The notes under the pieces were generated by a model, which worked only from the letters and a program-made list of their open reading frames with translations, made no database searches and was not told where the DNA came from. The translations under genes and the position numbers were made by a program. A stretch of 26,870 nucleotides of DNA from a virus: positions 1 through 26,870 of the IMG/VR virus record IMGVR_UViG_3300030107_004565, one strand, 5' to 3'. Of the stretch, positions 279 through 22,987 are shown piece after piece (the first letter of the stretch is position 1; every line of letters begins with the position of its first letter).

Positions 279-1004
279 ATGAGTTTAGGAGACGTCGGAA
301 ATTGGGTGTCGGATCACATTGTCGGATCCGGAATCCGCTCAAAAGGAGCCTACAACAGGGCTCTTCGAGAAGACACCAAGGCAATGCAAGAGGGCAAACT
401 TGGTTACACTCAGGGTAAAAAAGACTACCTGAAGACGGGAGCAACCGATGAGGCTCAAAGAAACGTCAAGGCTGCTTTAGATGATGCCTCAGAAACAGGA
501 AAACTCGATTCGGGCACCGCGATTGAGGCAGCGAAAGCAGCGGCAGGAGAGGCTGCGAAGACATTCAAAGATGTCGAGATTATGAGTTCTATCGAGGCAG
601 AGAATAGGCGAAAAGAAACTATGAATGCCCTCAACCAGAAGCGCCAAGAGTGGAATGATGCTCTCAGTACAGTCCTGACCGCAGGAGGGGAGGCAGCAGC
701 GGCAGCCGCCGCTGGGGGCGGAACGAGCGGGGCGATTTCTGCGGCCTTGATGGCTCTTTGTTGGGTAGCAAGAGAAGTTCTTCCTGAACAATGGCGAGAT
801 TGCAGAACTTATGTTCTTTTTGGAGCCCCGAAGTGGTTTCGAAACTGGTATGTGAAGAACGGAGAGCAGGCCGCTGAGTGGCTTCGCGCTCACCCCTGGG
901 CAAAAGTTCCCCTCAAGCCTGTATTTAGATACTTTGCTTGGAGAGGAAAAGAGATGGCTCGTCGAGATCCGTCTCTCATCAGCGCACAAGCAGGTTTACT
1001 TTAG
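279..1004 (+). CDS. internal virion protein, gp14-like position, with CWVAREV C-terminal domain
   Basis: This encodes 241 aa with an ATG preceded by TAGGAG. Residues 55-130 are Ala/Lys/Glu-rich and probably helical. Residues 137-160 form a small-residue run (GGEAAAAAAAGGG then a short hydrophobic stretch) that could insert in a membrane. Residues 161-220 begin CWVAREV and include APKWFRNWY, a C-terminal module I recall from many phage structural proteins. Size, the Ala/Gly segment and position just before a roughly 1000-aa and a roughly 2000-aa gene match the T7 gp14 slot, a protein ejected into the cell envelope. This is inference from layout; sequence similarity to gp14 is not claimed. The stop overlaps the SD of the next gene, so the two are translationally coupled. 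Confidence 0.75.
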   Translation: MSLGDVGNWVSDHIVGSGIRSKGAYNRALREDTKAMQEGKLGYTQGKKDYLKTGATDEAQRNVKAALDDASETGKLDSGTAIEAAKAAAGEAAKTFKDVEIMSSIEAENRRKETMNALNQKRQEWNDALSTVLTAGGEAAAAAAAGGGTSGAISAALMALCWVAREVLPEQWRDCRTYVLFGAPKWFRNWYVKNGEQAAEWLRAHPWAKVPLKPVFRYFAWRGKEMARRDPSLISAQAGLL

Positions 1005-1012
1005 GAGTTGTC

Positions 1013-4000
1013 GTGTCGATTGGAGAATGGAACGAAGAGAGAAAGGCGCGTAGGGCTCGACGAAACCGGAATATCTTGGCCCGAAAGAGTTTGAGAGAAG
1101 CGCATCCCGAACTCACAGAACTCTTGGACGAGAGAGCAGAAGACAAAGAACAACTCAAAGCCAAGCAGTACGCGAACTACTGGGGACTGGAAGGAGTTGA
1201 TCTTATTGCTCCTCCTGACCTGTCAGAAAGGTATGACAAGGCTCTTGCTTTTTTGGCGAAAGCCGCAGAAGCTCAGGATGATTTGGTAAAAGCTACGGCT
1301 CCTCAACCTCATCCTCTTTTTGCTGAGTTGTTCAGCCTTTACCGTACAGAAGCGACCGCATTGTCTGGGGTTGAGGGAAAGAAGGCCACGGAACACGGAA
1401 AGGTTCTGGACGCTCAGATGGGGAATCTCTCGGACATTCGTGCAAAAGTACGGACACGACTTCCGGCTTCTGGATCTGAGACTCGAAACCGATTGATTGA
1501 AATGAAGTCTGAGAACTTCAACGAGGCCGGTGGCTGGGCCACGGACCCCACTCGTACTGGAAACTGGGGATATGATGTTTTAGAAATTATGCGAGACATC
1601 CCAGATCCGGAGGAGCAGTCTGCGGCTTTTGCATGGCTTTCAATGGAAACCGGAGTTTCTGTAGAAGACATGATGGACGCAGCAGAGTCTAATCTGGGAG
1701 CCGCAAATCTCGATGCTCAGGACATGAGAACCCACTTGGCTCAAATGAGGAGAGTCCAAGAAGGATTGGCAGGAGAGTATGATGCAGGAGTTGCTGCGGT
1801 AAACGGAGCATACAGTGACCTCCAAGGCGTCTACGGTGGACTGTCCCGTCGAGGTCGAGAACTCGGAGATGCAGTTCTGGACGCTCTAATCTCAGGAGAC
1901 CCAGAACAAGTATCTGTAGCTCTCGGACTTTCTCGAAACCAGGATCTTCCCGAGGGTGCAGCTACAGCCCAGGGTCGACGTGTCATCGATGACATGCTCA
2001 AGCTCGATGAAGATGTCGATTACTGGATGCAAGACTCGGAGCATATCGAGAGGATCCTAAACTCTCCTTATTTTCGAGAAGCAGCACAAGAATACGGTTT
2101 TGAGGGATGGGAAGACCAAGCTGCCTCTATGGATATCTTGGATCGGTTCGAGAACTACCATGAAAGAGAACAAGCCTCTACGACGGATAGGAACAAGCTT
2201 GCTGAAGCTTACCGAATCCTTGAGGGGCATCAAGACAGCAATGCGTGGGAATACTTGAAGGCTCGTGTCTACGCAGCATCCCGTCCCAAGCTCTATGACG
2301 AGTATGTGGCAGAGATGAAAGGAATTTCGCCTCAAGCAGCCGCCCAAGAGAACAGCCAAGTAGATGTCCAAGAGGAAATCAACGCTCGGAAGGTTCCTTC
2401 CGCTTTCGGTATAGATCTTCCTACTGGTCCTAATGGAGAACCTCTTTCCTTAGAAGAGTTTACTCGCCTTCTCCCCTCTCTCGCGAGATCTCTCCCTCGG
2501 GAAGCCATGGCGGAACTGAGAGCACAAGGAATCTCAAGTCCAGCAGAGGCCTATGAGTGGTACAAAGGAAGGTTTGCTCAAGAAACCCCCGCCGAGGAAA
2601 CCCCTATCGAGGAGACTCCCGAGTCCGAAACTCCCGAGTCCGAAACTCCCGCAGCAGCCGAGAGACCTCTTCTTCGTTCTGGAAGTCGAGGATCAGAAGT
2701 AGAAGCTCTTCAAAGAACTCTTCAAGGTCTTGGATATGACTTAGGAACTTCAGGTCCGAATGGAGATGGAATCGACGGACAGTTTGGTCCTGCGACCAAA
2801 CGAGCAGTTGAAGCTTTCCAAACAGCCCAAGGGATTGGAGTGGATGGAAGAGTAGGTCCGGATACATGGGGAAAACTTGCAGACGTGGGCGATCCCTCAC
2901 CGAGTGAGGAAGCTGCTCCGACTGAGCCTCCTCCAGACATTCGAGTTCCTGACGCGGGAACGATTCGAGCCATGCAAAGGCTGGCAGACAGCCAAGGGCG
3001 AACCCTCCCTCTGGGATCAAGTGGATTGTACTTGGAGCCCCAAGGTGAAGGTCAGCTATACCAAATTGAAGGCTTCAAAGAGTCCGGACCTCTTGTTCCT
3101 TATTCTCCTTCACAGCCCGCAGAGACTCCGACAGAAACTCCAGCCGTGGACGAACCAGAACTGGTCGGAGGAGACGCTGGACAAGTTCGAACGGGAACAG
3201 ACGGAGCCTACGACTACACTCTTGATTCCGATGGAACAATTCGATTTACTGTTCCTGGAGAAGATCGAGAACGAAAGATCACTCCACGAAACCCTGGAGC
3301 CTACTACGCTGTCATGGAGGATGCTTTCGGGGAAACGGTTCCCCAGAATATGCAAGCCGTTGTCACAAATGCGCGTAATCGCTGGGCTAATCGAAATCAG
3401 CCCGCAGAAGGATCTGCTGATGGGGAAGAAGCAGAGGCTGCCCTTGTCGAAGACGCTCCTGCTGAGGACGAAGCAGTAGAAGCAGTAGAAGCAGCGCCCG
3501 TCGTGGAGGACGAAGCGGCTGAGGAAGAGACGGAGGACCAGGAAGAAGAACAGATTGACGAACTCGACATCTCGGCTCTCGGATCTCCTGCGGCTCCCAC
3601 CGGAACTATGAGCGAAGGCTCAACGATGGTAGCAGGTCCGGACTCCGTGAGGCGTAGTCCTTCTCGAAGAGAGAAGGTCAATGCGTGGCTTCGCAGTCAG
3701 GGAGTGAGCCAAACTGATGTGGATACGCTCAATCAGGCTGCGGATGAAGTCATGGGATCCATGAAACGTCGCCTTCCTGCTCAAGCGGCTGCTCCTACGA
3801 ACTTTGAGGCCCAATCGAAGGGACTCACGAACATGCCACCGAGCACTTCCGCTTCTGTAGCCTCCCCTCCTGGGCTGGGACAAGCGAGTGAGACGGTTTC
3901 TGGAGGAGGAGGCAGGACCAGATCAGCCATAGCCCAACAGAACATTCAGGCAGTTCTGGATAGCGCGAAAAAGAAGAAATCAGATAGACCTCAGCCTTCG

Positions 4001-4036
4001 ACGGCTGCCCCCGCACCCGGACAGAGAGCGGAATAG
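1013..4036 (+). CDS. large internal virion protein with peptidoglycan-binding domain (gp15-like position)
   Basis: This encodes 1007 aa from a GTG at 1013, chosen because AGGAG at 1003-1007 sits 5 bases upstream. An in-frame TTG at 938 would overlap the previous gene by 67 bases and has no good SD. Residues 1-520 are charged and mostly helical. Residues about 523-546 are an ETPxE linker. Residues about 550-626 are a PG_binding_1-type domain: GSRGSEVEALQRTLQGLGY, then DGQFGPATKRAVEAFQ and VDGRVGPDTWGKL. Residues about 800-850 are very acidic, and the C-terminus is low complexity. The PG domain predicts contact with the cell wall during genome ejection or lysis. It lies between the gp14-like and gp16-like genes, so a role as an ejected protein is inferred. 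No catalytic lysozyme domain is recognised. Confidence 0.8.
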   Translation: MSIGEWNEERKARRARRNRNILARKSLREAHPELTELLDERAEDKEQLKAKQYANYWGLEGVDLIAPPDLSERYDKALAFLAKAAEAQDDLVKATAPQPHPLFAELFSLYRTEATALSGVEGKKATEHGKVLDAQMGNLSDIRAKVRTRLPASGSETRNRLIEMKSENFNEAGGWATDPTRTGNWGYDVLEIMRDIPDPEEQSAAFAWLSMETGVSVEDMMDAAESNLGAANLDAQDMRTHLAQMRRVQEGLAGEYDAGVAAVNGAYSDLQGVYGGLSRRGRELGDAVLDALISGDPEQVSVALGLSRNQDLPEGAATAQGRRVIDDMLKLDEDVDYWMQDSEHIERILNSPYFREAAQEYGFEGWEDQAASMDILDRFENYHEREQASTTDRNKLAEAYRILEGHQDSNAWEYLKARVYAASRPKLYDEYVAEMKGISPQAAAQENSQVDVQEEINARKVPSAFGIDLPTGPNGEPLSLEEFTRLLPSLARSLPREAMAELRAQGISSPAEAYEWYKGRFAQETPAEETPIEETPESETPESETPAAAERPLLRSGSRGSEVEALQRTLQGLGYDLGTSGPNGDGIDGQFGPATKRAVEAFQTAQGIGVDGRVGPDTWGKLADVGDPSPSEEAAPTEPPPDIRVPDAGTIRAMQRLADSQGRTLPLGSSGLYLEPQGEGQLYQIEGFKESGPLVPYSPSQPAETPTETPAVDEPELVGGDAGQVRTGTDGAYDYTLDSDGTIRFTVPGEDRERKITPRNPGAYYAVMEDAFGETVPQNMQAVVTNARNRWANRNQPAEGSADGEEAEAALVEDAPAEDEAVEAVEAAPVVEDEAAEEETEDQEEEQIDELDISALGSPAAPTGTMSEGSTMVAGPDSVRRSPSRREKVNAWLRSQGVSQTDVDTLNQAADEVMGSMKRRLPAQAAAPTNFEAQSKGLTNMPPSTSASVASPPGLGQASETVSGGGGRTRSAIAQQNIQAVLDSAKKKKSDRPQPSTAAPAPGQRAE
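2612..2656 (+). repeat. 15-base in-frame tandem repeat encoding ETPES linker
   Basis: Three consecutive 15-base units, GAGACTCCCGAGTCC, GAAACTCCCGAGTCC and GAAACTCCCGCAGCA, encode ETPES-ETPES-ETPAA just before the peptidoglycan-binding domain. The first two differ by one base, so the linker length has probably changed by slippage or unequal exchange. Similar Pro/Thr/Glu linkers occur in other virion genes here. Confidence 0.9.
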
Positions 4037-4038
4037 CG

Positions 4039-7000
4039 ATGTCTACTACAGAGGATACCTTTTCTCGGGAGGTGGTCGAAGGCTACGAACCTCCAGAAAA
4101 GACAGAAGAGCAAAAGAAACGAGAGCAGGCGATTCGAGATACTGCTGCTCGTTTCCAGGAACGGATGCAGGAGTCTCTGACTCCTCCCCGCTCTCGCCCA
4201 AGTGCTCCTTCTCCTCAACCCTCTCTTGTCGCTCCTTCTATCCGTCCTCAAACTTCTCAATGGGATTTTCAGACTCCTGGGGAAGAGTTCGTTGAGAGGG
4301 AGAAGAAAACATTCTACCCGGGCTTGCACGAAACTTCGTCTTCCAACCCCGTTCTCTTAGACACTCCTCGGGCAACAGAAGAAGACGAGCGCCGAGAGTC
4401 TCCTCTCAACTTTCTCCAATCTGAAAAACCTCCAGAAGGCTGGCAGCCAACTCCCCAAGACATCTCTCGTCTAATGGACGAGGGTTTGCTGGCTAAGGAT
4501 GACGTCAATAATCCAGAATGGGTTTGGATGGCTGGAAGAGCTTCGGCTGAAAGAAGCAGGGCCCCAGGTGGATGGTTTCAGAAAGCATCGGGAGATGCTC
4601 TCGTAGAAGAAGTCCGGTCTGGAGAGAGTGCCATCCAGAAAGCCATCTGGGGTACGGTCCCGATGAACTCCCGAATTGTTCGGGGAGACATCGTTCTCGA
4701 TACCGCTAAGATGTATCGAGATACCCATCAGATTCATCGAACTAAGCTTCTTCGAGAACTCGCAGAAGACCGGGGAATGAATTTCCAACAACTTTCTCCG
4801 GAAGAACAACAAGAAATCGAGGAGAAAGCTCGAAGGAGAACTCAGATCTCGATGGCGGTGTTCATGAACTCCGGAACCCGGATGTTCTACACCGACCGTT
4901 TTGATCGAGACATTACTGAAGAAATCAGAAACTCTTCCGGCCTCACTCGAATCTGGAAACTCCTTACTTCCCCGACGCAATATGGCGCAGTGGGCGCGAG
5001 TTTCCCGGACACTCAAGCGGGAGATATCGCCAGAATGCAGGCGACTCTCTCCCCCGGGCAGTTGAAAACCGAAAGTGCTATAGCCAAGTTCGGACGCATG
5101 TCCCTTTCGACTCTTTGGTCTCCGATGGTTTTCGGGGGGCACGAGTGGATGTCGGAAGATTACATCGATGCCGTCCGAGCCGGAGACGAGCTTATTCTCC
5201 ACATTGGAGATCTCGCAGAGAGAATTGATGGAGTAGAGACAGGAGAAGGAACTTCTGACTCAGCCAAGGTTACATCAGCAGTGACCGTGGGTGCCATTAT
5301 CCTCAGTGAGCCGGATATCGTTTCTCTATCTTTTCTTCCTTTTGGTCTTGCGGCAAAAGGGCTCCGTGTCGCAAGGGCGGCTTCGATTGCGGGAAAAGCA
5401 AGACGGTCTGCTGAGACCCTTAGAAAGCTTCGGCAGGCAGTTGAAAATGGAGAAGAGCTTCCAGAAGTAGCCAAGAGACTCGGAGCATACGACGAGGCCG
5501 TGAAGCAAGCTGTCCAGCTTCGAGCCCTCTCTGAGTGGAACCTCAATGAGGTGACTCGGGTAAGAGGAACGGGTGGCGTAGAAGAAGCTGAAAGGCTTTA
5601 CCAACAGGCAGAGGCTGCTGCCAAAAAAGCAGATAAAATTAGAGACGAACTCGCTACGATGTCTACCGACCTGTTGGGGGCAGAGACCAAAGCTCGAAAA
5701 GCACTCTTGGACTTTCAGGCTGCGGAACAGGATCTTTTTGTCGCCTATGCTCGTCGAGAGATGTCAGAAGTCCAGAAGAACGAGTTTCTTCAACTCTTCG
5801 GACTTTCTCCAGAAGACGCTGCTCGGATTCAGTATCGGAAAGACGTTCCTGCTTTCGAGCAGGGGGCGAGAAATGCTGAAAAGGCGGCTAAGGAGATTCG
5901 TAAAAGGGCAAGAGCACTTCGAAAAGTAAAGGCGAATAAGGCTCTCCTGGATACCTATGACAAAAAAGCCCGGGAGTTGGGAAGCCTCTTTCGTACAATG
6001 GAAGAAGGATTCTACGGGGTCGAGGAAGCCACGACCAAAGGAGGCAAAAAACTCCGAGCCGGATGGGAAGTCCTCACGGGAGAAGCCCTCCCCCTGGGCA
6101 AAATCTCTCGAACAGGAGAGCCCTTCCGGATTCCTGTCTACGGACAACAGATTCGAATCCCCACAGAGCGAGGAGGAACTGTTCTTCGAGTCGTTGAGGG
6201 AATCGAGATTCGAGGTCCAAAGACAAAGAAACTCTCTGATGGGCCAGACAATCGAATCATTCTCAAGGTGAGAGGACCCTCTGGAGAGATTGAGGAGTTT
6301 GTCCATCCGTTTAGAATCAAGAAGCAGGCTGCGGAGAATCTTCGCACCAAGATCCTGGACTTCGAAGAAACTCATAAGATCCTAACTGCTGATGGCGGTT
6401 TGATGGATGAGTTGACTACCTTGGATAGGCTTGCTGCTCAGGCTGATGAGTACGCGGCTTCTCTGCGAATCGATGGTCCTGCTGGGTTGAAACTCCAAGA
6501 GTTCGAAGACACCTCCCAAGCTCTTATTGATGCCTCGAAGGCATATAAAAAAGCAGCCAAGGAAGCCAAGCTTCCGGTGAAGAATCTCGAAAAACTCACG
6601 AGAGAGCACACAGGAAAGGGAAGAGCCCTCGTTCGGTCAGAACTGGAAGCACTCGAAAAGGGCAACATGCGTAAGGTCTATGCAGACGCCCTGGAGGATA
6701 CAGCGAGGGGCTTAGACAACTTCATTGATACGGGTCTTAAGAACATCGGAATCGTGGGATTCAAAGGACCCAAGCAGATTGCCCAGAGTATCAAGGGTCT
6801 GGTCAAGATGAGCGGAGACGATATCAAAACCTTCGGAATGAAGGTTAGTGATCGAAAAGTCGAGGAAGGCTACCGTGAGATCTTGGAGAAGAACTCTACC
6901 TTCAAGGCCCAAGACAAAGGTAGGAAAGAAGCTATTGTCGAGTTTGATGTAGATGGAATCATTCGAGATCTAATCCCTCGAATGGGCGGAGCAGAAAACT

Positions 7001-10000
7001 TACACAAGTTTGTTAAAACTCCAGAAGGAGCCGGACTGAACACCCTTTTCGAAAAGGCGTCCAGCGGGGGTTGGAAGCCCACGCCTGTCGGACTTCGAGG
7101 AGAAATTGCCTCTGAAGTTCAGCAGTCTATTCGAGAAGCAGTTCGTCACGGAGAAGCAAGGAAACTCTTCACAGACGATGTTGTTTGGGGACGAGCAATC
7201 CATGAAGCCTGGAGAGATCTCGGCTTGGAGAATAGGGCTACTCGCCTAAATCGACTCAAGAACGCGGCGAGCTATTTCCCTCTGGTAGGGAAGAAGTTCC
7301 GGGGATCTTTCAAAAATGTAGGATTTCGAGTAGGAGAATACTCGAAAGACGTTGAGGACGCCTTTATGGCGACGGAGCGACTTCTCAATAGAGGTCGCAT
7401 GGAACTTCTTGAAATCGGACGGCTCGAAGAATTCGGAGATACTCCCTATGAGAGACTTTCCAATTGGCTCGACTTCCAGGGAGAAGTCCGTCTTAGTGAA
7501 GGAACAAGTCAGTGGTCGGTAGCTACTGGCCTTGGAACTCCCTACGAGAAAGGAGCCCTTGCTATTCTTGCAGATCGAAGGATTGATCCGAGATTACGAG
7601 AGATAGGAGCAGCAGAGCTTTCTCATAGAGCACGGACACATCGAAGAACTCTTGAAAACCTCCTAAGAAAAAGCCTGGGCAAGACTCTTGATGATGGAAC
7701 CGAGATCACACAAGACTTCATCGATGAAGCAGTCGAGGCAGCAGGAGAGATCACAGAAGATCTCATGGCCCTTACTCCAGATGGAGGAGTAAGCGGAGCC
7801 CCACTTAGTCTGACTGCTGTTTCTCGTATGTGGCTTCCTCGGGGAGAAGGCATCGACGTCACCCCCGAGCAGGGACGTCTCCTTATGGGACTTGCCCGAC
7901 AGTTTCTCCAGAAGTCCAACACCTTTGGTCCCGCAAAGAATGCCCTCGGTGAAGTGGTCGACGCTGGATTCTCAGAGAAAATGCGAAAAGCAACCTTCGC
8001 CATCCTGGGCAGAACAGAGAGCAGCTTCGCCCGGGCGAATGCTTTCGCAGCCGGAGGCTTTCAAGCAGCCGCCACGATGGGAACCCTAAGCCATCGACTT
8101 GGAAGAGCATCAGGTCTTCGACTCTCTGCGGAGCAGGCGACAGACATCAATCGAATCATGATGGGAGATGTCGAAAACGTAAAAGACATGCCCGCTGCGA
8201 TGGATGCGCTCAACCGAATGGGCATGCCGTTTACTCAGAAGTCCGTAGATCGAGGAGTAGGAAGCAAGATCTCCGGGTCCGGAGGTGGAGTTGACCTAAA
8301 AACTCTCGTCGAGGTCGGATCGGATCCAAGCACAGCTTCCTTTGTTCCGCTCAACCTTCTGAAAGAATTGGAAAGAAAGGCAGGCAGGCTCTCAAAAGAA
8401 CTTGAATCTTTCTCTCCAGCATCCCGAGATGCTTCTCAGCTTTTCTACAATAGAGCAGTCCAGGGATACCTAAGTTTATGGAGAGGGTCTGCGGTTACAG
8501 GACTTTGGGTTCCCAACCCTCGATACTGGACAAACAACATGATGGGCGACTTTTCCCAAATGTGGGAAGAGGTTGGATTCATTCGTGCTGCCCAGAGGAG
8601 TTTTATCAACGCCCCGACAAACCTTCCTTTTGTGGGACGGTGGCTTCAGACTAAATCGCTCTATATGGCAGAGAGGGTAACGGGAAAATCAGGTCGAGGC
8701 CAAGCCCTCCCGGGCATCATCGACACCTGGACAAATCCTTGGTTGGGTCGAGTATTCAAAGGAGAAAAGGGCCAATTCGTAACCAAGAACGGGGACATCA
8801 TAACCTACGATCAAGCTCGAACATGGGCGATTGAGGATGGTATTTCCGAAGCCTTCGTTCGTGAAGAGCTTATGGATATGTACAGCCGCACTGCGGGCGA
8901 CTTTGATGCCATGGGCACAGAGATGGGCAAGTGGTGGAAGAACGATGGCATCTATTACCATGCTGCTCAAACACAGGAACGGCAACGAGTGGCTCTATAC
9001 CTGGACATGATCCAGCGAGGAGCTACCAGAAAAGAAGCGGCACAAGCGACAAAGCGGGCTCTTTACGACTGGTCTCATGGAATCGCAGAATGGGAAGCGA
9101 GAACGATTGCTCGTATCGTTCCCTTCTGGAGATTCTGGAGACTTCGTTTGAAGCAGACTGAACAGTCTTTCATCGAACCTTTCGTTCGTCCGGCAGACGA
9201 GTACGCGAAGAAAGCTCTTGTAGGAAACACTCGACTCGCTCGACTCCGACAGCAGACCGTAATCTTTCCTTCTCTTCCGGATTTCGTCTATCAAGACAAC
9301 CCTCATGCCGGAATGACGGAGAATGAGAAAGTAGACATGCTTGCTCGCCAACTCTACCCAACCTGGGCCGACACCAAACCTAAGTTGGGGATTGTCCCTT
9401 GGAGCCCAACTCGGAGGATGAAATACCTGGAGAGAACCGGAAAAGAGATGACCCATGGAATGATTACTCTTCCTATGGGATCCTCCTTAGACGGACTGGA
9501 CATGGCAAGCGCCCTCTACACGGGCATGTTCATGATCGCAAATGAAACCGCTAAGACACTAAAACTTCCTCACGCGGATTTTCAGGCTCCCGGGGATGTT
9601 GCTGCTCGATTCATGGAGCCGATTCTTGGGGGAATGATGCCCATTCCGGAGTCTGCTACTCGTGCTTTGATGTCACAGATGAATGTAGACTTGGACTTCC
9701 AGATTCGAGGAGCAGATCGATATCTGTCTCCCGAGGAAGAACAGACTTGGAGGAAGTTCCCAGACTGGCTGCCTGTTTTGGGAGCAGAGATGCAATTCGA
9801 TCATGAAGCAGGTCGATACAAAGTCCCACAAGAAACCTACTGGGCATGGAGAGCACTTCCCTTCACAACAACTCAGATCCAACCTTGGATCGGAGCGTTC
9901 TCTTCTCCCGAGTGGGACGAAGGATTCAAGCAGGGCTTTTGGGCAGCCACAAAACGCTTGACGGGAATCGGTCGAGAGATTCCCTTCAACGTAAACAAGG

Positions 10001-10179
10001 AAATCGATGGCAGACGGCGTGATATGCAGGAGCAGTTCAAACGATTCGTGAAAACGCAATCCGCTACCTTGCAGCCATATGATCGTCGAGGTCGGAGACG
10101 AGAAGGACTGCCCGACTTAGAGCAGAAATGGGTAGATGAAGCAAAGAGGAGAACTCGAAGAATCGAGGGAGAAGATTAG
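4039..10179 (+). CDS. giant internal virion (ejection) protein, gp16-like position
   Basis: This encodes 2046 aa, the largest gene here, with its ATG two bases after the previous stop. The N-terminal 100 residues are Pro/Ser-rich. Around residues 415-450 there is a hydrophobic stretch (VGAIILSEPDIVSLSFLPFG), followed by a long Ala/Lys/Glu coiled-coil-like region to about 640. Around residue 1500 it reads GLWVPNPRYWTNNMMGDFSQ. Near 1675-1705 it has YDWSHGIAEWEARTIARIVP followed by FWRFWRLRL. That last pattern resembles the 'YDYS..xxFE..xxRRxxPFYTW' segment found near the end of very large phage internal proteins. I see no lytic transglycosylase signature. Size and position match the T7 gp16 slot, the protein thought to help form the DNA ejection channel. 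Function is inferred from context. Confidence 0.75.
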   Translation: MSTTEDTFSREVVEGYEPPEKTEEQKKREQAIRDTAARFQERMQESLTPPRSRPSAPSPQPSLVAPSIRPQTSQWDFQTPGEEFVEREKKTFYPGLHETSSSNPVLLDTPRATEEDERRESPLNFLQSEKPPEGWQPTPQDISRLMDEGLLAKDDVNNPEWVWMAGRASAERSRAPGGWFQKASGDALVEEVRSGESAIQKAIWGTVPMNSRIVRGDIVLDTAKMYRDTHQIHRTKLLRELAEDRGMNFQQLSPEEQQEIEEKARRRTQISMAVFMNSGTRMFYTDRFDRDITEEIRNSSGLTRIWKLLTSPTQYGAVGASFPDTQAGDIARMQATLSPGQLKTESAIAKFGRMSLSTLWSPMVFGGHEWMSEDYIDAVRAGDELILHIGDLAERIDGVETGEGTSDSAKVTSAVTVGAIILSEPDIVSLSFLPFGLAAKGLRVARAASIAGKARRSAETLRKLRQAVENGEELPEVAKRLGAYDEAVKQAVQLRALSEWNLNEVTRVRGTGGVEEAERLYQQAEAAAKKADKIRDELATMSTDLLGAETKARKALLDFQAAEQDLFVAYARREMSEVQKNEFLQLFGLSPEDAARIQYRKDVPAFEQGARNAEKAAKEIRKRARALRKVKANKALLDTYDKKARELGSLFRTMEEGFYGVEEATTKGGKKLRAGWEVLTGEALPLGKISRTGEPFRIPVYGQQIRIPTERGGTVLRVVEGIEIRGPKTKKLSDGPDNRIILKVRGPSGEIEEFVHPFRIKKQAAENLRTKILDFEETHKILTADGGLMDELTTLDRLAAQADEYAASLRIDGPAGLKLQEFEDTSQALIDASKAYKKAAKEAKLPVKNLEKLTREHTGKGRALVRSELEALEKGNMRKVYADALEDTARGLDNFIDTGLKNIGIVGFKGPKQIAQSIKGLVKMSGDDIKTFGMKVSDRKVEEGYREILEKNSTFKAQDKGRKEAIVEFDVDGIIRDLIPRMGGAENLHKFVKTPEGAGLNTLFEKASSGGWKPTPVGLRGEIASEVQQSIREAVRHGEARKLFTDDVVWGRAIHEAWRDLGLENRATRLNRLKNAASYFPLVGKKFRGSFKNVGFRVGEYSKDVEDAFMATERLLNRGRMELLEIGRLEEFGDTPYERLSNWLDFQGEVRLSEGTSQWSVATGLGTPYEKGALAILADRRIDPRLREIGAAELSHRARTHRRTLENLLRKSLGKTLDDGTEITQDFIDEAVEAAGEITEDLMALTPDGGVSGAPLSLTAVSRMWLPRGEGIDVTPEQGRLLMGLARQFLQKSNTFGPAKNALGEVVDAGFSEKMRKATFAILGRTESSFARANAFAAGGFQAAATMGTLSHRLGRASGLRLSAEQATDINRIMMGDVENVKDMPAAMDALNRMGMPFTQKSVDRGVGSKISGSGGGVDLKTLVEVGSDPSTASFVPLNLLKELERKAGRLSKELESFSPASRDASQLFYNRAVQGYLSLWRGSAVTGLWVPNPRYWTNNMMGDFSQMWEEVGFIRAAQRSFINAPTNLPFVGRWLQTKSLYMAERVTGKSGRGQALPGIIDTWTNPWLGRVFKGEKGQFVTKNGDIITYDQARTWAIEDGISEAFVREELMDMYSRTAGDFDAMGTEMGKWWKNDGIYYHAAQTQERQRVALYLDMIQRGATRKEAAQATKRALYDWSHGIAEWEARTIARIVPFWRFWRLRLKQTEQSFIEPFVRPADEYAKKALVGNTRLARLRQQTVIFPSLPDFVYQDNPHAGMTENEKVDMLARQLYPTWADTKPKLGIVPWSPTRRMKYLERTGKEMTHGMITLPMGSSLDGLDMASALYTGMFMIANETAKTLKLPHADFQAPGDVAARFMEPILGGMMPIPESATRALMSQMNVDLDFQIRGADRYLSPEEEQTWRKFPDWLPVLGAEMQFDHEAGRYKVPQETYWAWRALPFTTTQIQPWIGAFSSPEWDEGFKQGFWAATKRLTGIGREIPFNVNKEIDGRRRDMQEQFKRFVKTQSATLQPYDRRGRRREGLPDLEQKWVDEAKRRTRRIEGED

Positions 10180-14708: not shown

Positions 14709-15197
14709 ATGGCACACTTCTCTCTCGATGAGTTTGTTGGAGCAATACAAGAAGCCGTCGTCAAATCTACTGATATTGCAGAGCAGCACGAACTCGATAA
14801 CATCCGCAAAGAAGAATACTGGATAGCTACTGACGAGAAAGCAGAAGACGGGACTCCCATCTACAAACCCAGAATGGTGACTGTTCGTTTGCCCGTTTGG
14901 GTTGAAGGGAAGCAGACGGAACAAGACATTCAAGTTCCAATGCAAACACTCGTCACCGGGCAGTCGCTCGCCATTGAGCAGATGACGGTTGAGATGGATA
15001 TCGAACTCCAGGGCATGGAGGATGGAGCAGACATTGGATGTATCCATCGAAAGCTAAAAATAAATCCCTCAATTGGAGGGAATGGGTGGTTCGCTAAAAA
15101 GCGAAATACTGCTAAGATTTCAATCACTTTCAAGGGGCAAGAGCCTCCAGAAGGTTATGCAAGAATCGACAATCAACTCATCAAACTACTTCCGTAG
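14709..15197 (+). CDS. DUF2589-related protein, first of a paralogous pair
   Basis: This encodes 162 aa with AAGGAA six bases before the ATG. Residues 5-35 are a helix (FSLDEFVGAIQEAVVKSTDI). Residues 57-101 are beta-type and include QVPMQTLVTGQSLAIEQMTV followed by EMDIEL. The end (AKISITFKGQEPPEGYARID then NQLIKLLP) matches the end of the next gene in layout. The next product shows the DUF2589 pattern clearly, and this one aligns with it by eye over helix, middle strands and C-terminus. It is therefore probably a diverged member of the same fold. The molecular function of this family is unknown to me. It lies between holin-like genes and a cell-wall enzyme. Confidence 0.65.
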   Translation: MAHFSLDEFVGAIQEAVVKSTDIAEQHELDNIRKEEYWIATDEKAEDGTPIYKPRMVTVRLPVWVEGKQTEQDIQVPMQTLVTGQSLAIEQMTVEMDIELQGMEDGADIGCIHRKLKINPSIGGNGWFAKKRNTAKISITFKGQEPPEGYARIDNQLIKLLP

Positions 15198-15206
15198 GAG
15201 AGAACA

Positions 15207-15836
15207 ATGGCAGACGGTCTCGTAAAAATGTCCGACCAGTTTGGTGGTCTTCCAATGGATCAGCTCATCGGCGGTCCCCTAAAAGCAGCTTGCGACTCCC
15301 AAGTCCAACTCGCGAAGGCTACCGCTGACTTCATCCAGAACGTGGGCCTCGAAACAGATGCCAATGGTGTGATGAAAGCCCGAACGGTGGACTTTACCTA
15401 CTCCAAGCCTGTGAATGACGGCGCTGGCGGGTACACCGAAGTTACCAACCAACTCGATGTTCCGATCCTCGCGATCCTGAACACTCCTTCTCTCCAGGTG
15501 AAAGAAGTCGAAGTCGATTTCACTATGGAAGTAAAGTCGAGCACCTCGGAAAAGAGCAGTCGAGACTACGAAGCTGCTATGGATACTCATGTCAAAGCAG
15601 GATGGGGTCCTGTCAGCGTAGATGTGAAAATCCATGGTTCTATCTCTGCTAAGAGCGAGAACACTCGAACTTCTGACAACTCCGCGAAGTACAACGTCAA
15701 AGTGATTGCCCGAGATGATGGCATGCCTGAAGGGCTCAAGCGTTGTCTCGATATCGTTCAGCAGGCGATTGCAGAAAAACCGCAGGCTGCTGCTCCAACC
15801 ACTCCCCCAGCACCAACCCCCGCAGCGAGGACATAA
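15207..15836 (+). CDS. DUF2589 family protein, second of the pair
   Basis: This encodes 209 aa; the SD TAGGAG includes the previous stop. Residues 15-47 read LPMDQLIGGPLKAACDSQVQ then LAKATADFIQNVG. Residues 60-110 include TVDFTYSKPV, then LDVPILAILNTPSLQVKEVE and VDFTMEVKSS. These are the hallmark segments of DUF2589 (a helix, then a VPxLAIxNxPSLxVxEVxxxFxMEVKSS core). Residues 190-209 are an Ala/Pro/Thr tail. No catalytic residues, signal peptide or membrane segment are visible. I know of no established function. The tandem arrangement suggests the two proteins form a complex, possibly acting with the lysis genes beside them; that is inference. Confidence 0.8.
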   Translation: MADGLVKMSDQFGGLPMDQLIGGPLKAACDSQVQLAKATADFIQNVGLETDANGVMKARTVDFTYSKPVNDGAGGYTEVTNQLDVPILAILNTPSLQVKEVEVDFTMEVKSSTSEKSSRDYEAAMDTHVKAGWGPVSVDVKIHGSISAKSENTRTSDNSAKYNVKVIARDDGMPEGLKRCLDIVQQAIAEKPQAAAPTTPPAPTPAART

Positions 15837-18439: not shown

Positions 18440-18693
18440 TATTCCTCTCCTTTCTCAAAGAGTGATTCGTAGGTTCGAAGCAATGCTGCTCCATGAGCCC
18501 GGGTTGGAATAGAAGTTCCCTTCTTCCACCGAGCGATGCTTTGGACACTGGGGTTCATTCCAGAGAGATGCTCCCCACACTTCACTGCAATCAGTTCGTA
18601 GGACATCCCTTTCTCAAGCATGTGCTCTATGAAAGGGCCACAGTTTGTACGGAGGTTAGCAAGCTTCTCTATATCAAGAGGTTTTTTCGGCAT
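18439..18693 (-). CDS. small HTH DNA-binding protein
   Basis: This encodes 84 aa from an ATG at 18693, chosen because AAGGAG lies seven bases upstream; an upstream in-frame start at 18741 lies deep inside the previous gene without an SD. Residues 31-59 (SYELIAVKCGEH, then NPSVQSIARWKKG) look like a Cro/CI-type helix-turn-helix in which the second helix ends in a Trp-Lys-Lys-Gly turn. It is the only stand-alone regulator-like gene here. It sits near the end of the replication operon, 20 bases inside the preceding gene. It may control the switch from early to late transcription or act with the ATPase it overlaps. Confidence 0.65.
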   Translation of the reverse strand: MPKKPLDIEKLANLRTNCGPFIEHMLEKGMSYELIAVKCGEHLSGMNPSVQSIARWKKGTSIPTRAHGAALLRTYESLFEKGEE

Positions 18694-19147
18694 TAGAAGT
18701 CTCCTTATGTCCGAGTGGAAGTTCGAGTTGTTGAGGCTCACATCGAAATCCGCCCTGCCAATCCTCTACGTCGAAAGGATAGACTTGGGTGATTCGTTCG
18801 AGCTTCTCCTCGGAGAGCAAAAAGACAGGGCGGCCTGCCCGAACTGCCAGATCAACAATCTGAGCAGTCGCCCTGCCTACGGTGGTGCCGGGGACTACGA
18901 TGAAATCGTAGTAAGGCTTCCGAGTGATAGCGTGCTCTCTCCTCACGACACTCTTGGCCCAGACGTTCCAGTCTCCTCGACAGTTGATCCGAAAGTCGTC
19001 CCTTCCCGAGATGACCGACACTTTCAGATCCTTACCCGCACGCTCTCCCTTGGCACGGATAAACTCTCTTATTCTAATACTCGTCTGGGCGATAGTTTTC
19101 TCGTTCTCGCCTGACGGGTGTGCGTAAAATACTCTAATGTTTTTCAT
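18674..19147 (-). CDS. deoxyribosyltransferase/SLOG-like conserved phage protein
   Basis: This encodes 157 aa with AAGGAAG six bases before the ATG. It starts with a strand (IRVFYAHPSG), has VSVISGRDDF in the middle, and then YYDFIVVPGTTVGRATAQIV followed by DLAVRAGRPVFLL. Strand, 'hydrophobic-V-P-G-T-x-x-G-x-A', helix, 'G-(R/K)-P-V' is the pattern of the nucleoside 2-deoxyribosyltransferase-like and LOG/SLOG Rossmann-type folds that bind nucleotides. A Glu in the usual catalytic site is not clearly identifiable. It could act in nucleotide salvage or modification, or sense a nucleotide signal. It overlaps the genes on both sides, so it belongs to the operon. Confidence 0.55.
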   Translation of the reverse strand: MKNIRVFYAHPSGENEKTIAQTSIRIREFIRAKGERAGKDLKVSVISGRDDFRINCRGDWNVWAKSVVRREHAITRKPYYDFIVVPGTTVGRATAQIVDLAVRAGRPVFLLSEEKLERITQVYPFDVEDWQGGFRCEPQQLELPLGHKETSNAEKTS

Positions 19148-20463
19148 GCTTCACTTCCTTTCACTCGAATAGTTGCAACTGCGGTGGGAAGCCCCCACCC
19201 GAAAGCTTCTTCCCTCCCCGGGGCTGAGACGCACTCCAACTCAATCTCTGATCCCCAGCCTTCCTCTTCCCGGATTTGAGAAATGAGGGGAGCTTCGTTC
19301 GCTGAGTCGATGGGAGTAACGAAGGTTCCGTCTGACTGCTCTTCGTATTTGCCAATACGGTGCGTGGTGATGTTCATGTACTCAGAACGATTCTCATCAT
19401 CATAGGAGCCCATTGTTTCGTGTGCCTTCCAAGCAGCGATTGTCATGGGCTTTATGTCCAAGACTTTCGCAGCCTCCTCGCATGAGTACATTCCCGAACC
19501 GACAAGTTCTATTGCGATGCGTCGAACACTGGTTTCTTCCTCTCCCTTGAGAAGGGAAAACATCCGCATGAACTGTCTGGAGAAAGTCGCATGCTGAGTG
19601 AGGATCTTCTCTACTGTTGCCCAGGTTTTCTCTTCTTTAGAGACGATAAACCCGACTGTATAAAATGGAGTTCCGTTACCGTGTTTCGTTCGTGATTGGT
19701 ATGTTGTTATCAACACTGGTCTTATCTGGAATCCATGGTATCCAAGACAAGCATTCAGGACCTCATGAATCACACTGACTCTTGCCATAGCAAGACCCAA
19801 TCCAGTCAGGTTCTTCCCTGACGGAGAGTACAGACGAAGAGCCTTTCGACCCCTTGATCTTTGTTCTACAGGAAAGTGAGTACGGACTTTCTTAGCTCCG
19901 ACCTTAATCATCTTTCTGGGATCAAAGGGCCTTTTTGTGTTCAAGAAATGAGCGCCTATCCAATGCTTCCGTTTTATGCAGAAGGCTCGATGGTCTCGCA
20001 ACTCCCGGGAAGACACATCAGGAAGGAGCTTCTTCTTGCTCTCTTTACCGAACTCTCTTCCCTTCAGCATCGTAATGGCGATATAGGACGTATCTTCCCC
20101 GTTGAGCATCACCTCTTTGATTGTGCAGAGATTCTCAAGAGATAGTCCATTACAGAAGTCCAGGTGGGCTGCATTGTAGGAGAGATCTTTGCAGACTTCT
20201 GCCACATCTCCCTGAATCGTTTGGACGTTCGGATATAGTTCCTGGCAATACTCGGCTGCATCCTTTGCGATATCAACCGCAATGATTTTCTCTGGCTCGA
20301 CTTTCAAGCCCTTTAGGGTGCTGATGTCGCCTCCGTGTCCTGCCAGGGTGAGGATTCCCTCGCATTCCTTTTTGAGCATTTGCATCCAGATCGCGGCCTG
20401 CATCCACAGATGTGCTCGGTTTGCCTTTTTTCCCAGGCTGTCTCCTTTATAGGTACTGTCCAT
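19144..20463 (-). CDS. SAM-methyltransferase-like protein with C-terminal HTH
   Basis: This encodes 439 aa; its SD (AAAGGAG) overlaps the polymerase stop. Residues 36-50 (EGILTLAGHGGDISTL) resemble the SAM-binding loop, residues 61-66 (IAVDIA) the acidic strand, 85-87 GDV, and 99-107 (AHLDFCNGL) the motif IV position. The DNA-methylase DPPY/NPPY motif is absent, so an adenine or N4-cytosine DNA methylase is unlikely. Residues 313-348 (SVRRIAIELVGSGMYSCEEA then AKVLDIKPMTIAAWKAHE) look like a helix-turn-helix. The combination suggests a DNA-associated enzyme or a regulator on a methyltransferase scaffold. The substrate is unknown. Confidence 0.55.
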   Translation of the reverse strand: MDSTYKGDSLGKKANRAHLWMQAAIWMQMLKKECEGILTLAGHGGDISTLKGLKVEPEKIIAVDIAKDAAEYCQELYPNVQTIQGDVAEVCKDLSYNAAHLDFCNGLSLENLCTIKEVMLNGEDTSYIAITMLKGREFGKESKKKLLPDVSSRELRDHRAFCIKRKHWIGAHFLNTKRPFDPRKMIKVGAKKVRTHFPVEQRSRGRKALRLYSPSGKNLTGLGLAMARVSVIHEVLNACLGYHGFQIRPVLITTYQSRTKHGNGTPFYTVGFIVSKEEKTWATVEKILTQHATFSRQFMRMFSLLKGEEETSVRRIAIELVGSGMYSCEEAAKVLDIKPMTIAAWKAHETMGSYDDENRSEYMNITTHRIGKYEEQSDGTFVTPIDSANEAPLISQIREEEGWGSEIELECVSAPGREEAFGWGLPTAVATIRVKGSEA

Positions 20464-20473
20464 GTTGACTCCT

Positions 20474-22987
20474 TTAGACTTCGCTCCAGCGATTACCGAT
20501 GTCTGCTCCAGCGGTGTAATCGAGGAGAGGGTTCACTTTCCTGCGTCGGTTCATGGCCTGTTCCAGAACTTCCGCAGCAAACTCTGCTTCCCCCTCGGGC
20601 ACCTCTAAGTAGAGAGCATCGTGGCCGTGATTGATGAGCCACTCCACAGGGAGAGTTTCTTTCGGGGGATTGATTGCTTCTGTCGCGAACCAATCTTGAA
20701 CCCCGTAAATAAGTTCGAGCATTGCCTCATTCACAATCACCACCCCTCCTGACTGGATGGGGTGATTTACAAGCTCGTTGATTTTGTCTTCATTTCTGAA
20801 GTAGCGGCGACGATCCCAAAGGGAGTCACCGATGAATCCTTCTTTCCGGTAGCGAGTTTCAATCATTCGCCACCATTTCGGGATCTCGGGATCTGCTCTC
20901 TTCAGTCCTTCGACGACTTGACGGACGTCTTCAACCGTAAGGTGAGAGTAGAGGAGGTTTCCTTCGTCGTCTTCGACTGAAACGATTTGCTCGTGGATTC
21001 GCTTAGTAGAAGCGGCATACTGCCAAGCGTACCGGGTGTTTTTTGTGATGTCTCGGGTTGCTTTGAAGGTCGCCTTGCCCTTCTCCTTACGATCACTGGG
21101 AGCCCCGTCGAGTTTCCAGATTCCTTTGCCATATACGATCTCCATTGTTTCGTTGTGTGGATCAAGTCCCTCTCGAATAACTCGAAGGGAATGCTTTGCT
21201 CGGGCTTCCTCTGCGATAAGCCGCAGTTCAAGCTGGTCCATGTCTGCGCCGATGAGCACACACCCCTTCCGGGCAACAAAGATGTCCCGCAAACTATAAG
21301 GGATGTTCTGTGCATTCGGGTTGCTTGAAGAGTATCTTCCCGTAGCGGGGAGCCTGTTGTAGCTGGGATGAATCCGAGTGATTTGCTTCTCAATCAGAGG
21401 TCGGATGTATGTGCCCAGGAGTTTGGTGACTTTTCGATAAGTCCGAACCGACCGAAGAAACGCGACTCGGTGCTCCTCCAATCCGTAATGAACAATCATC
21501 GTGCGGAGAGTTTCGTCATCCGTGGAAGGGTCTCCAGTCTTCTCAGAGTAATGATGAGGAGCGAGGCCCCACTCAGAGAAGAGAAGATTTGCCATCTGTC
21601 GGGTGCTTTGGGGATTGAATCCCTCGCCTACGATGTCTTGGCAGCGTCGGAGATGAATCTTTGCTTCCGTATCCAACCTGACCAAATGTTCAGTAGCCTT
21701 CCCGAGGTCAACTCCCATGCCTACGCTTTCCATCGTAGCGCCCAAGGATTGAAGCATGTGTTCCCGAGGAAGGAGATGTTGCTGGCTTCGCTTCTTCACA
21801 TCCCGGGCAAGAGGCTTCGTGATTCGAGCCGTGACGCATACATCCTTTCCGCAGTAGATATGCAGTTCTTCGTCTGTCTTAGCCTGAACCGCCGTGTGGT
21901 CTGCCTTCCATGCTTCTGGGTTGTCTGTATAAAAAGAACCGACAAACCCCAGGTTATGAGGAAGTTCGTTGTCTGCGAGAAGATGAAGAAGGATCGTATC
22001 GCAGGTGAGATTGGGGGTGATCCCCAGCCAGGACTCTACGCAAAGACGATCATATTGTCCTGCATTATGTCCAATAAGAGGAATCTGCGGATCCAGGAAG
22101 AACTTCTTTAGGGAGTTTTCGAGTTTCTCAATCTCACCCAAACTGGCTAAGTAACTCCCATCGATAGATCGAATCTCGACAACGACCGCTTCTTCCTCTG
22201 TTCCCAGACCTACACACCTGACGTTCGCGGTCATGGGGTCAATGCCGTCTGTCTCCAAGTCATAGGCAACCGGAGACTTATTTGCTCTCCACCGGGCAAT
22301 GAAGTTCTCCAGAACTTCTACATCGGCTGTGCGAGTAATCTTAGGCTCGGGCCAGTCCAGCGTTCCTGAGAAGAAGCGAAATGCTTTTCGCAGGTCATGA
22401 CGAAACACTTCTCGATAGGCTGCTTGTCTCAGCACCCAAGCTGGGTGCATCGTATATCCAACCTCCAAGATCACATCTGGATCCCAGGGGGCTATCACAA
22501 GTTCGCACCCTCCTCGGATGTTCATGATGGAGACATCTCCCCCTCGGATTGCTCTCGCTGCTGTCTTACCCAGGCAAATGATGCGTTTGATTCCGGTGGC
22601 TTTCAGTTCCTCATAGAGGAGAGTCTTGCAGGCATCCACGGGTCGAAGGAGCTTTACAGCTTCTTCTCCTTTCTCCCGGGCCTTCTTCTCCCTTCTCCGA
22701 TTGATTCGAGAAACCTGAATGTTGACTGCTTCCAGGTCATTCTTAGGAGGACGACATCGAACAGTGTTCGCGATGTAGCACTTGTCCCGAGGAATGTTTA
22801 GAGCATTGAGAGCAGCTTGGAGTTCCAGACCACTTGGACCGACAAAGGGTCTCCCCTCAACAGTCTCGTGCATTCCAGGTGAGTCTCCCAGAATGATCAC
22901 ACGATCATCATCGTGCGCTTCGGATAGCACTGGGGCAGCGGCACCGCCCTGGTTTAGGGCGCAGTTTTTACAGATTGGGTAGAGCAT
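20474..22987 (-). CDS. uracil-DNA glycosylase / DNA polymerase I fusion
   Basis: This encodes 837 aa and is the replicative polymerase candidate. Residues 1-205 form a family 4-type UDG domain: Fe-S cysteines C6, C9, C78 and C120, GDSPG at 34-38, GRPFVGPSG at 45-53, and HPAWVLR at 181-187. Residues 238-395 are a 3'-5' exonuclease with D243/E245, H307-N308 with D313, and Y378...D382. Residues 535-837 are the family A polymerase core: motif A D582...E587-L-R, motif B R645...K649...Y653...Y657, and motif C H789-D790. There is no 5'-3' nuclease domain. An in-frame TAG lies 12 bases before the ATG, so the start is fixed. No Shine-Dalgarno is present. Confidence 0.93.
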   Translation of the reverse strand: MLYPICKNCALNQGGAAAPVLSEAHDDDRVIILGDSPGMHETVEGRPFVGPSGLELQAALNALNIPRDKCYIANTVRCRPPKNDLEAVNIQVSRINRRREKKAREKGEEAVKLLRPVDACKTLLYEELKATGIKRIICLGKTAARAIRGGDVSIMNIRGGCELVIAPWDPDVILEVGYTMHPAWVLRQAAYREVFRHDLRKAFRFFSGTLDWPEPKITRTADVEVLENFIARWRANKSPVAYDLETDGIDPMTANVRCVGLGTEEEAVVVEIRSIDGSYLASLGEIEKLENSLKKFFLDPQIPLIGHNAGQYDRLCVESWLGITPNLTCDTILLHLLADNELPHNLGFVGSFYTDNPEAWKADHTAVQAKTDEELHIYCGKDVCVTARITKPLARDVKKRSQQHLLPREHMLQSLGATMESVGMGVDLGKATEHLVRLDTEAKIHLRRCQDIVGEGFNPQSTRQMANLLFSEWGLAPHHYSEKTGDPSTDDETLRTMIVHYGLEEHRVAFLRSVRTYRKVTKLLGTYIRPLIEKQITRIHPSYNRLPATGRYSSSNPNAQNIPYSLRDIFVARKGCVLIGADMDQLELRLIAEEARAKHSLRVIREGLDPHNETMEIVYGKGIWKLDGAPSDRKEKGKATFKATRDITKNTRYAWQYAASTKRIHEQIVSVEDDEGNLLYSHLTVEDVRQVVEGLKRADPEIPKWWRMIETRYRKEGFIGDSLWDRRRYFRNEDKINELVNHPIQSGGVVIVNEAMLELIYGVQDWFATEAINPPKETLPVEWLINHGHDALYLEVPEGEAEFAAEVLEQAMNRRRKVNPLLDYTAGADIGNRWSEV

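Follow-up and report, generated by a model that had tools for sequence, protein, structure and literature searches.

Fusions of a UDG domain to a family A DNA polymerase (PolA) recur in phages, and the role of the UDG part has stayed open. The SPO1 type, PaBG gp205 and the Lupandier group, for which a UDG-PolA fusion was described in 2020 (PMC7412058), and the phiLo polymerase (PDB 9qhs) all carry an N-terminal UDG domain, a 3'-5' exonuclease and a family A polymerase on the same chain. The phiLo structure, released in 2026, is a solved precedent for this architecture, and in the PDB the UdgX entries continue to bear the title 'Phage SPO1 DNA polymerase-related protein'. Our search for literature on the biochemistry of UDG-PolA fusions or on phiLo found nothing usable. 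The preliminary description of the DNA studied here held that UDG domains on phage polymerases were already known, which SPO1, PaBG and phiLo bear out; it singled out a cluster-bearing version with the insertion described below, and cluster-bearing fusions as such are already known as well.

Two groups of enzymes serve as the reference for the UDG part. In the family 4 enzyme TthUDGa, kinetics show that E47, F54, N80, N89 and H155 matter for catalysis, N89 positioning the attacking water; k2/Km falls from 2.4e5 to 94 in H155S (a cost of >1000-fold) and to 5.5e3 in N80A, and E41Q brings a ~1000-fold loss (PMC5387724). In UdgX, the R-loop holds the nucleophilic H109 (PMC10359453).

Here, we analysed a virus record of 26,870 bases (hereafter, the window) encoding an 837-aa protein of this kind. 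Relatives were gathered from IMG/VR and one metagenome-assembled genome (MAG), and their UDG domains were thinned to 46.

The polymerase gene and its surroundings

The open reading frame named in the preliminary description was recovered exactly and lies on the minus strand, a detail that the description did not give (Table 1). It begins with ATG, is preceded by an in-frame stop four codons before the start, and has no internal stop. Based on Pfam annotation, this one frame joins the UDG domain to an exonuclease-polymerase core, as had been proposed, and the protein thus has the UDG, exonuclease and PolA parts of a phage UDG-PolA fusion on a single chain. The Pfam domains and the catalytic residues are those of a family A polymerase with proofreading, and the four exonuclease residues are all kept in the relatives. 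Y653 occupies the position of E. coli 762 and is of the tyrosine type discussed for virulent marine phages (PMC6302109). The UDG part is a genuine gene product, with dN/dS of 0.03–0.07 across pairs of relatives.

Table 1. Features of the UDG-exonuclease-polymerase gene (positions in the window)
Feature	Position	Strand	Basis or remark
UDG-exonuclease-PolA fusion, 837 aa (P0001)	20474..22987	minus	ORF, Pfam, dN/dS
N-terminal family 4-like UDG domain, residues 1-209	22361..22987	minus	Pfam UDG 26-189 (2.5e-23), model, fold match
C6-x-x-C9, first two presumed cluster ligands	22961..22972	minus	invariant in 46/46 rows
Motif A GDSPG, residues 34-38	22874..22888	minus	E/D toggles within family
C78, third presumed cluster ligand, within RCRPPKN; N83 there = TthUDGa N89	22754..22756	minus	
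Inserted helix (predicted), residues 85-106, R94 and N96 near-invariant	22670..22735	minus	pLDDT ~95
C120, fourth presumed cluster ligand	22628..22630	minus	46/46 rows
H181-P182, motif B catalytic histidine (= TthUDGa H155)	22442..22447	minus	H in 42/46 rows
3'-5' exonuclease domain, residues 225-397; D243, E245, D313, D382	21797..22315	minus	Pfam DNA_pol_A_exo1 (4.3e-10)
Family A polymerase domain, residues 439-836; D582, R645, K649, Y653, D790	20480..21673	minus	Pfam DNA_pol_A 439-836 (1.8e-42), fold match

The minus-strand neighbours of the polymerase encode a Sak4-like AAA protein, a PD-(D/E)XK nuclease and a helicase, so that the gene belongs to a tailed-phage replication module. We suggest that the 837-aa protein is the replicative polymerase (family A) of such a phage, with a built-in family 4-like UDG domain. 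The two genes directly downstream of it (18674–19147 and 19144–20463, minus) have no Pfam match; the first looks by eye like a nucleoside deoxyribosyltransferase-type protein, and the second has a weak PHROG match to a methyltransferase (E 0.0037).

On the plus strand, two adjacent genes in the phage structural/lysis region (14709–15197 and 15207–15836) encode DUF2589 proteins (4.9e-17 and 3.8e-42), and the relative G002 also has two DUF2589 members. The same strand carries genes for a 2046-aa protein (4039–10179) that matched neither Pfam nor PHROG and for a 1032-aa protein (938–4036) with a peptidoglycan-binding domain at residues 584–647 and low-complexity acidic stretches.

Cysteines, predicted fold and uracil pocket of the UDG domain

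The translation contains C6, C9, C78 and C120, i.e., the four-cysteine CxxC...C...C pattern of family 4 UDGs, with a distance of 42 between C78 and C120, exactly as first described. These cysteines are invariant in all 46 thinned relatives, down to 35% identity, so that homologues lacking both the motifs and the cluster, named in advance as evidence against the proposal, did not occur within the family. The Cys3-Cys4 spacing was 16 in 7/7 readable cellular family 4 UDGs, which were retrieved from Pseudomonadota genomes using a profile of the UDG domain of the 837-aa protein and whose spacings were partly read by eye from printed segments. It is also 16 in the alignment of T. maritima 1vk2 (C101–C117), in line with the value of about 16 quoted earlier for family 4. 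UdgX-type proteins in the same Pseudomonadota control had a spacing of 23, with His replacing the third Cys. The insertion is thus real and larger than that of UdgX; across the relatives of the 837-aa polymerase, 25–44 residues separate Cys3 and Cys4.

When the full-length model was compared with PDB libraries, only polymerases were returned, because the polymerase fills the list; the UDG domain was therefore modelled separately. The AlphaFold2 model of this domain, built with 46 related domains, had a pLDDT of 94.1 and a pTM of 0.90. It matched 4zbx, 1vk2, 1ui0 and 1l9g with Z of 21.6–22.0 and rmsd of 2.2–2.5 Å over 174–179 residues, as expected for a family 4 UDG fold. The match to UdgX was about equal (Z ~21.8), followed by another Thermus UDG (2d3y) at Z 17.2; for the phiLo polymerase, the UDG part gave Z 15.4. 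Since the structural match extends over the full domain and the sequence alignment pairs its cysteines with the family 4 ones, a shared cluster site is the natural inference: in the modelled fold, the four cysteines would converge in space, and C6, C9, C78 and C120 presumably bind a [4Fe-4S] cluster. With NCBIfam TIGR00758, however, the protein scored 85.8 bits against a cut-off of 125.3, so the domain is called family 4-like and not a member of family 4.

Two further cysteines of the UDG domain, C138 (42/46) and C161 (45/46), are near-invariant and are not known as family 4 cluster ligands. The same stretch (residues 138–161, window positions 22505–22576) is accompanied by an invariant R158-G159-x-x-E162.

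The insertion had been proposed to be very charged and to form a separate helix. Both points agree with our results: residues 85–106 are a single helix in the domain model and also in the full-length model, the element is conserved across the family, and by charged fraction (46%) residues 79–119 rank 24th among 796 segments of the protein. A strongly basic insertion was rejected, since the net positive charge of residues 79–119 is modest (+5, 106th of the 796). R94 (41/46 relatives) and N96 (43/46) are conserved at the level of catalytic residues, N96 even better than N83 (37/46). The insertion starts directly after N83 and is located at the site of the UdgX R-loop. For this reason, the helix would begin at the active-site edge and probably lie on the DNA side, a position that appears likelier from the sequence than a contact with the polymerase. 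No histidine occurs between C78 and C120 in the window protein, and UdgX chemistry is therefore not expected. The family-specific inserted helix is a new element.

The residues E47, F54, N80, N89 and H155 of TthUDGa have counterparts in E41, F48, N74, N83 and H181, so that the equivalents of the family 4 catalytic residues N80, N89 and H155 are present; H181 and N74 are each found in 42 of the 46 thinned relatives. Motif A is indeed GDSPG and not the usual GEAPG, as had been pointed out, but this is not remarkable. Residue 35 is E in 27 and D in 14 of the 46 rows and switches between the two at least seven times on the tree, many relatives having GEAPG, and GDSPG was rejected as a functional oddity. 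It should be noted that D at residue 35, where family 4 enzymes with their GE(A/G)PG motif have E, counts against activity in this particular protein, together with the ~1000-fold loss seen in TthUDGa E41Q.

Loss of the catalytic histidine and the role of the domain

In a tree built from the exonuclease-polymerase part, in which L126 and L127 are long branches of unsure placement, H181 was lost at least four times: in L020 (H181S plus N74Y), in L042/L044 (H181D plus N74Y), in L124 (H181P) and in L132/L134, where all motifs are gone. L020 and L124 are each a single metagenome contig. The cysteines are kept in every case, and loss of the histidine is usually accompanied by loss of the uracil-reading asparagine. 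By analogy with TthUDGa, where H155S costs more than 1000-fold, the domains lacking H181 are very likely inactive. The two His-less lineages that could be measured are nevertheless under strong purifying selection, with UDG dN/dS of 0.07 (L042 vs. L044) and 0.05 (L132 vs. L134), like the motif-bearing pairs (0.03–0.07), and no member without a UDG domain was found among relatives down to 35% identity. This suggests that in those lineages the domain is kept for a role other than excision, which could also be something other than DNA binding, e.g., polymerase folding.

The reverse case is seen outside this family, in Microcystis phage Mel-JY34, Caulobacter phage Kuura and the isolate ctMlz233, which, with starts taken as annotated, have lost the cluster cysteines and largely kept the motifs. 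Either of the two, cluster or catalysis, can therefore be lost without the other, and their separation is a new finding. The family of the window protein amounts to a natural experiment, since the same polymerase occurs in relatives that keep the catalytic histidine and in others that lack it, with the cluster cysteines present throughout; comparing them separates a repair function from a structural one directly.

Based on the above results, we suggest, with a probability of roughly 55%, that the polymerase-tethered UDG has a permanent structural or DNA-holding role together with uracil excision in most members, probably including this one. As a lasting structural part, the UDG module would grip DNA next to the polymerase, and this would account for the constant presence of cluster and fold. 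In the majority of lineages, and probably here, it would also cut uracil from the template or from single-stranded DNA at the fork. The two options offered in the preliminary description, coupling of uracil detection to synthesis or a scaffold only, can both apply: the uracil pocket is retained in most lineages, and at least four have lost it and kept the domain. A stronger form of the proposal, in which the cluster-bearing UDG became an obligate DNA-gripping part whose Fe-S fold and DNA-side helix are essential and whose excision activity is dispensable and was discarded several times, can be put forward only tentatively.

It is rather unlikely that the domain is purely catalytic, i.e., an active UDG tethered at the fork to clear uracil, with the catalytically dead relatives as decaying side branches. 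The uracil pocket is kept in ~91% of the thinned rows, and the fold and motifs are of the family 4 type, as this account expects. However, the His-less pairs show no relaxation (UDG dN/dS 0.05–0.07), every cysteine is kept over at least four independent losses of the histidine, and no phage uracil-metabolism genes turned up in the relatives searched. None of the 16 virus records of relatives that were searched gave a dUTPase (PF00692), whereas the same search was positive in 11/14 control genomes and in the MAG. In Pfam scans of two near-complete relatives, covering the ORFs other than the polymerase and the largest structural ones, we found a helicase, a primase, a PD-(D/E)XK nuclease and a Sak4-like ATPase, and MT-A70 in one of them, with no match to the thymidylate synthase, deaminase, dUTPase, AP endonuclease or ligase families. 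The phage therefore brings no visible uracil-repair pathway, and a repair reading gains no support there. On the same evidence (no dUTPase in 16 records; no thymidylate synthase, deaminase or dUTPase in the two relatives), a uracil-containing or thymine-modified genome was rejected as the reason for the UDG; host genes may serve in place of phage-encoded ones.

A purely structural role, in which the UDG fold is a DNA-binding or processivity element and catalysis is irrelevant in this protein too, is quite unlikely. Vaccinia D4 would be its model, a UDG fold serving the polymerase in this way (see also PMC10253040). The cysteines outlive catalysis and selection is maintained without it, but H181, N74 and E/D35 are kept in ~90% of rows, and a pure scaffold would not need them.

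We consider it improbable that the domain is a uracil sensor that holds a template uracil without release and stalls the polymerase. Archaeal family B polymerases stall at template uracil using another pocket. The pocket is intact here, and residue 35, often D or another residue in place of E, might lower turnover; no specific pointer to sensing emerged, however, and most rows keep the catalytic histidine. Finally, a UdgX-like covalent trap, with the insertion as an R-loop crosslinking the domain to an abasic site, is highly improbable and was rejected on sequence: the insertion sits at the KRRIH site and its near-invariant R-x-N (R94, N96) recalls the R-x-H of UdgX, but the insert has no His and is predicted with confidence as a helix where UdgX has a flexible loop, motif A lacks the Gln of UdgX, and the third ligand is Cys, not His.

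Comparison with known systems

The UDG domain of the window protein shares the fold, the four cysteines and the uracil-pocket residues with the family 4 enzymes TthUDGa (1ui0), T. maritima TM0511 (1vk2) and S. tokodaii 4zbx. It differs from them in the Cys3-Cys4 spacing (42 instead of 16), in motif A (GDSPG instead of GE(A/G)PG) and in its fusion to a polymerase. UdgX of M. smegmatis carries its insertion in the same loop of the active site and has an equally close fold, whereas its KRRIH R-loop with the His nucleophile, its GEQPG motif A, its His third ligand and its flexible loop are absent here; none of the relatives has Q in motif A.

The polymerases of Serratia phage Serbin and Pseudomonas phage Almagne have the same UDG-exonuclease-polymerase architecture and the four cysteines, the first pair in Almagne being found upstream of the annotated start. 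They differ in a normal Cys3-Cys4 spacing, in motif A (GDAPN/GDNPN) and in Pro in place of the uracil-reading Asn. In Mel-JY34, Kuura and ctMlz233, the UDG-type domain has an insertion at the site used in the window family; they keep variants of motif A (GEAPG, GDCPT and GEFPG), the Asn and the HP motif, without the cluster cysteines. In Kuura (L149), the UDG-exonuclease (2953–4062) and the polymerase (4675–6357) are encoded in two genes, separated by two small ORFs, and represent a split fusion. Virus Rctr197k (L152, 2902–5850) encodes a UDG-PolA fusion with a far longer insertion (~100 residues) at the same Cys3-Cys4 site.

Compared with the phage UDG-PolA fusions other than SPO1, the window family keeps the four cysteines together with its insertion of 25–44 residues between Cys3 and Cys4. 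The UDG part of phiLo reaches only Z 15.4 to the window domain, against 22 for the family 4 enzymes. If the structural reading is true, the family would offer a phage counterpart of poxvirus D4, here as an Fe-S domain built into a replicative polymerase.
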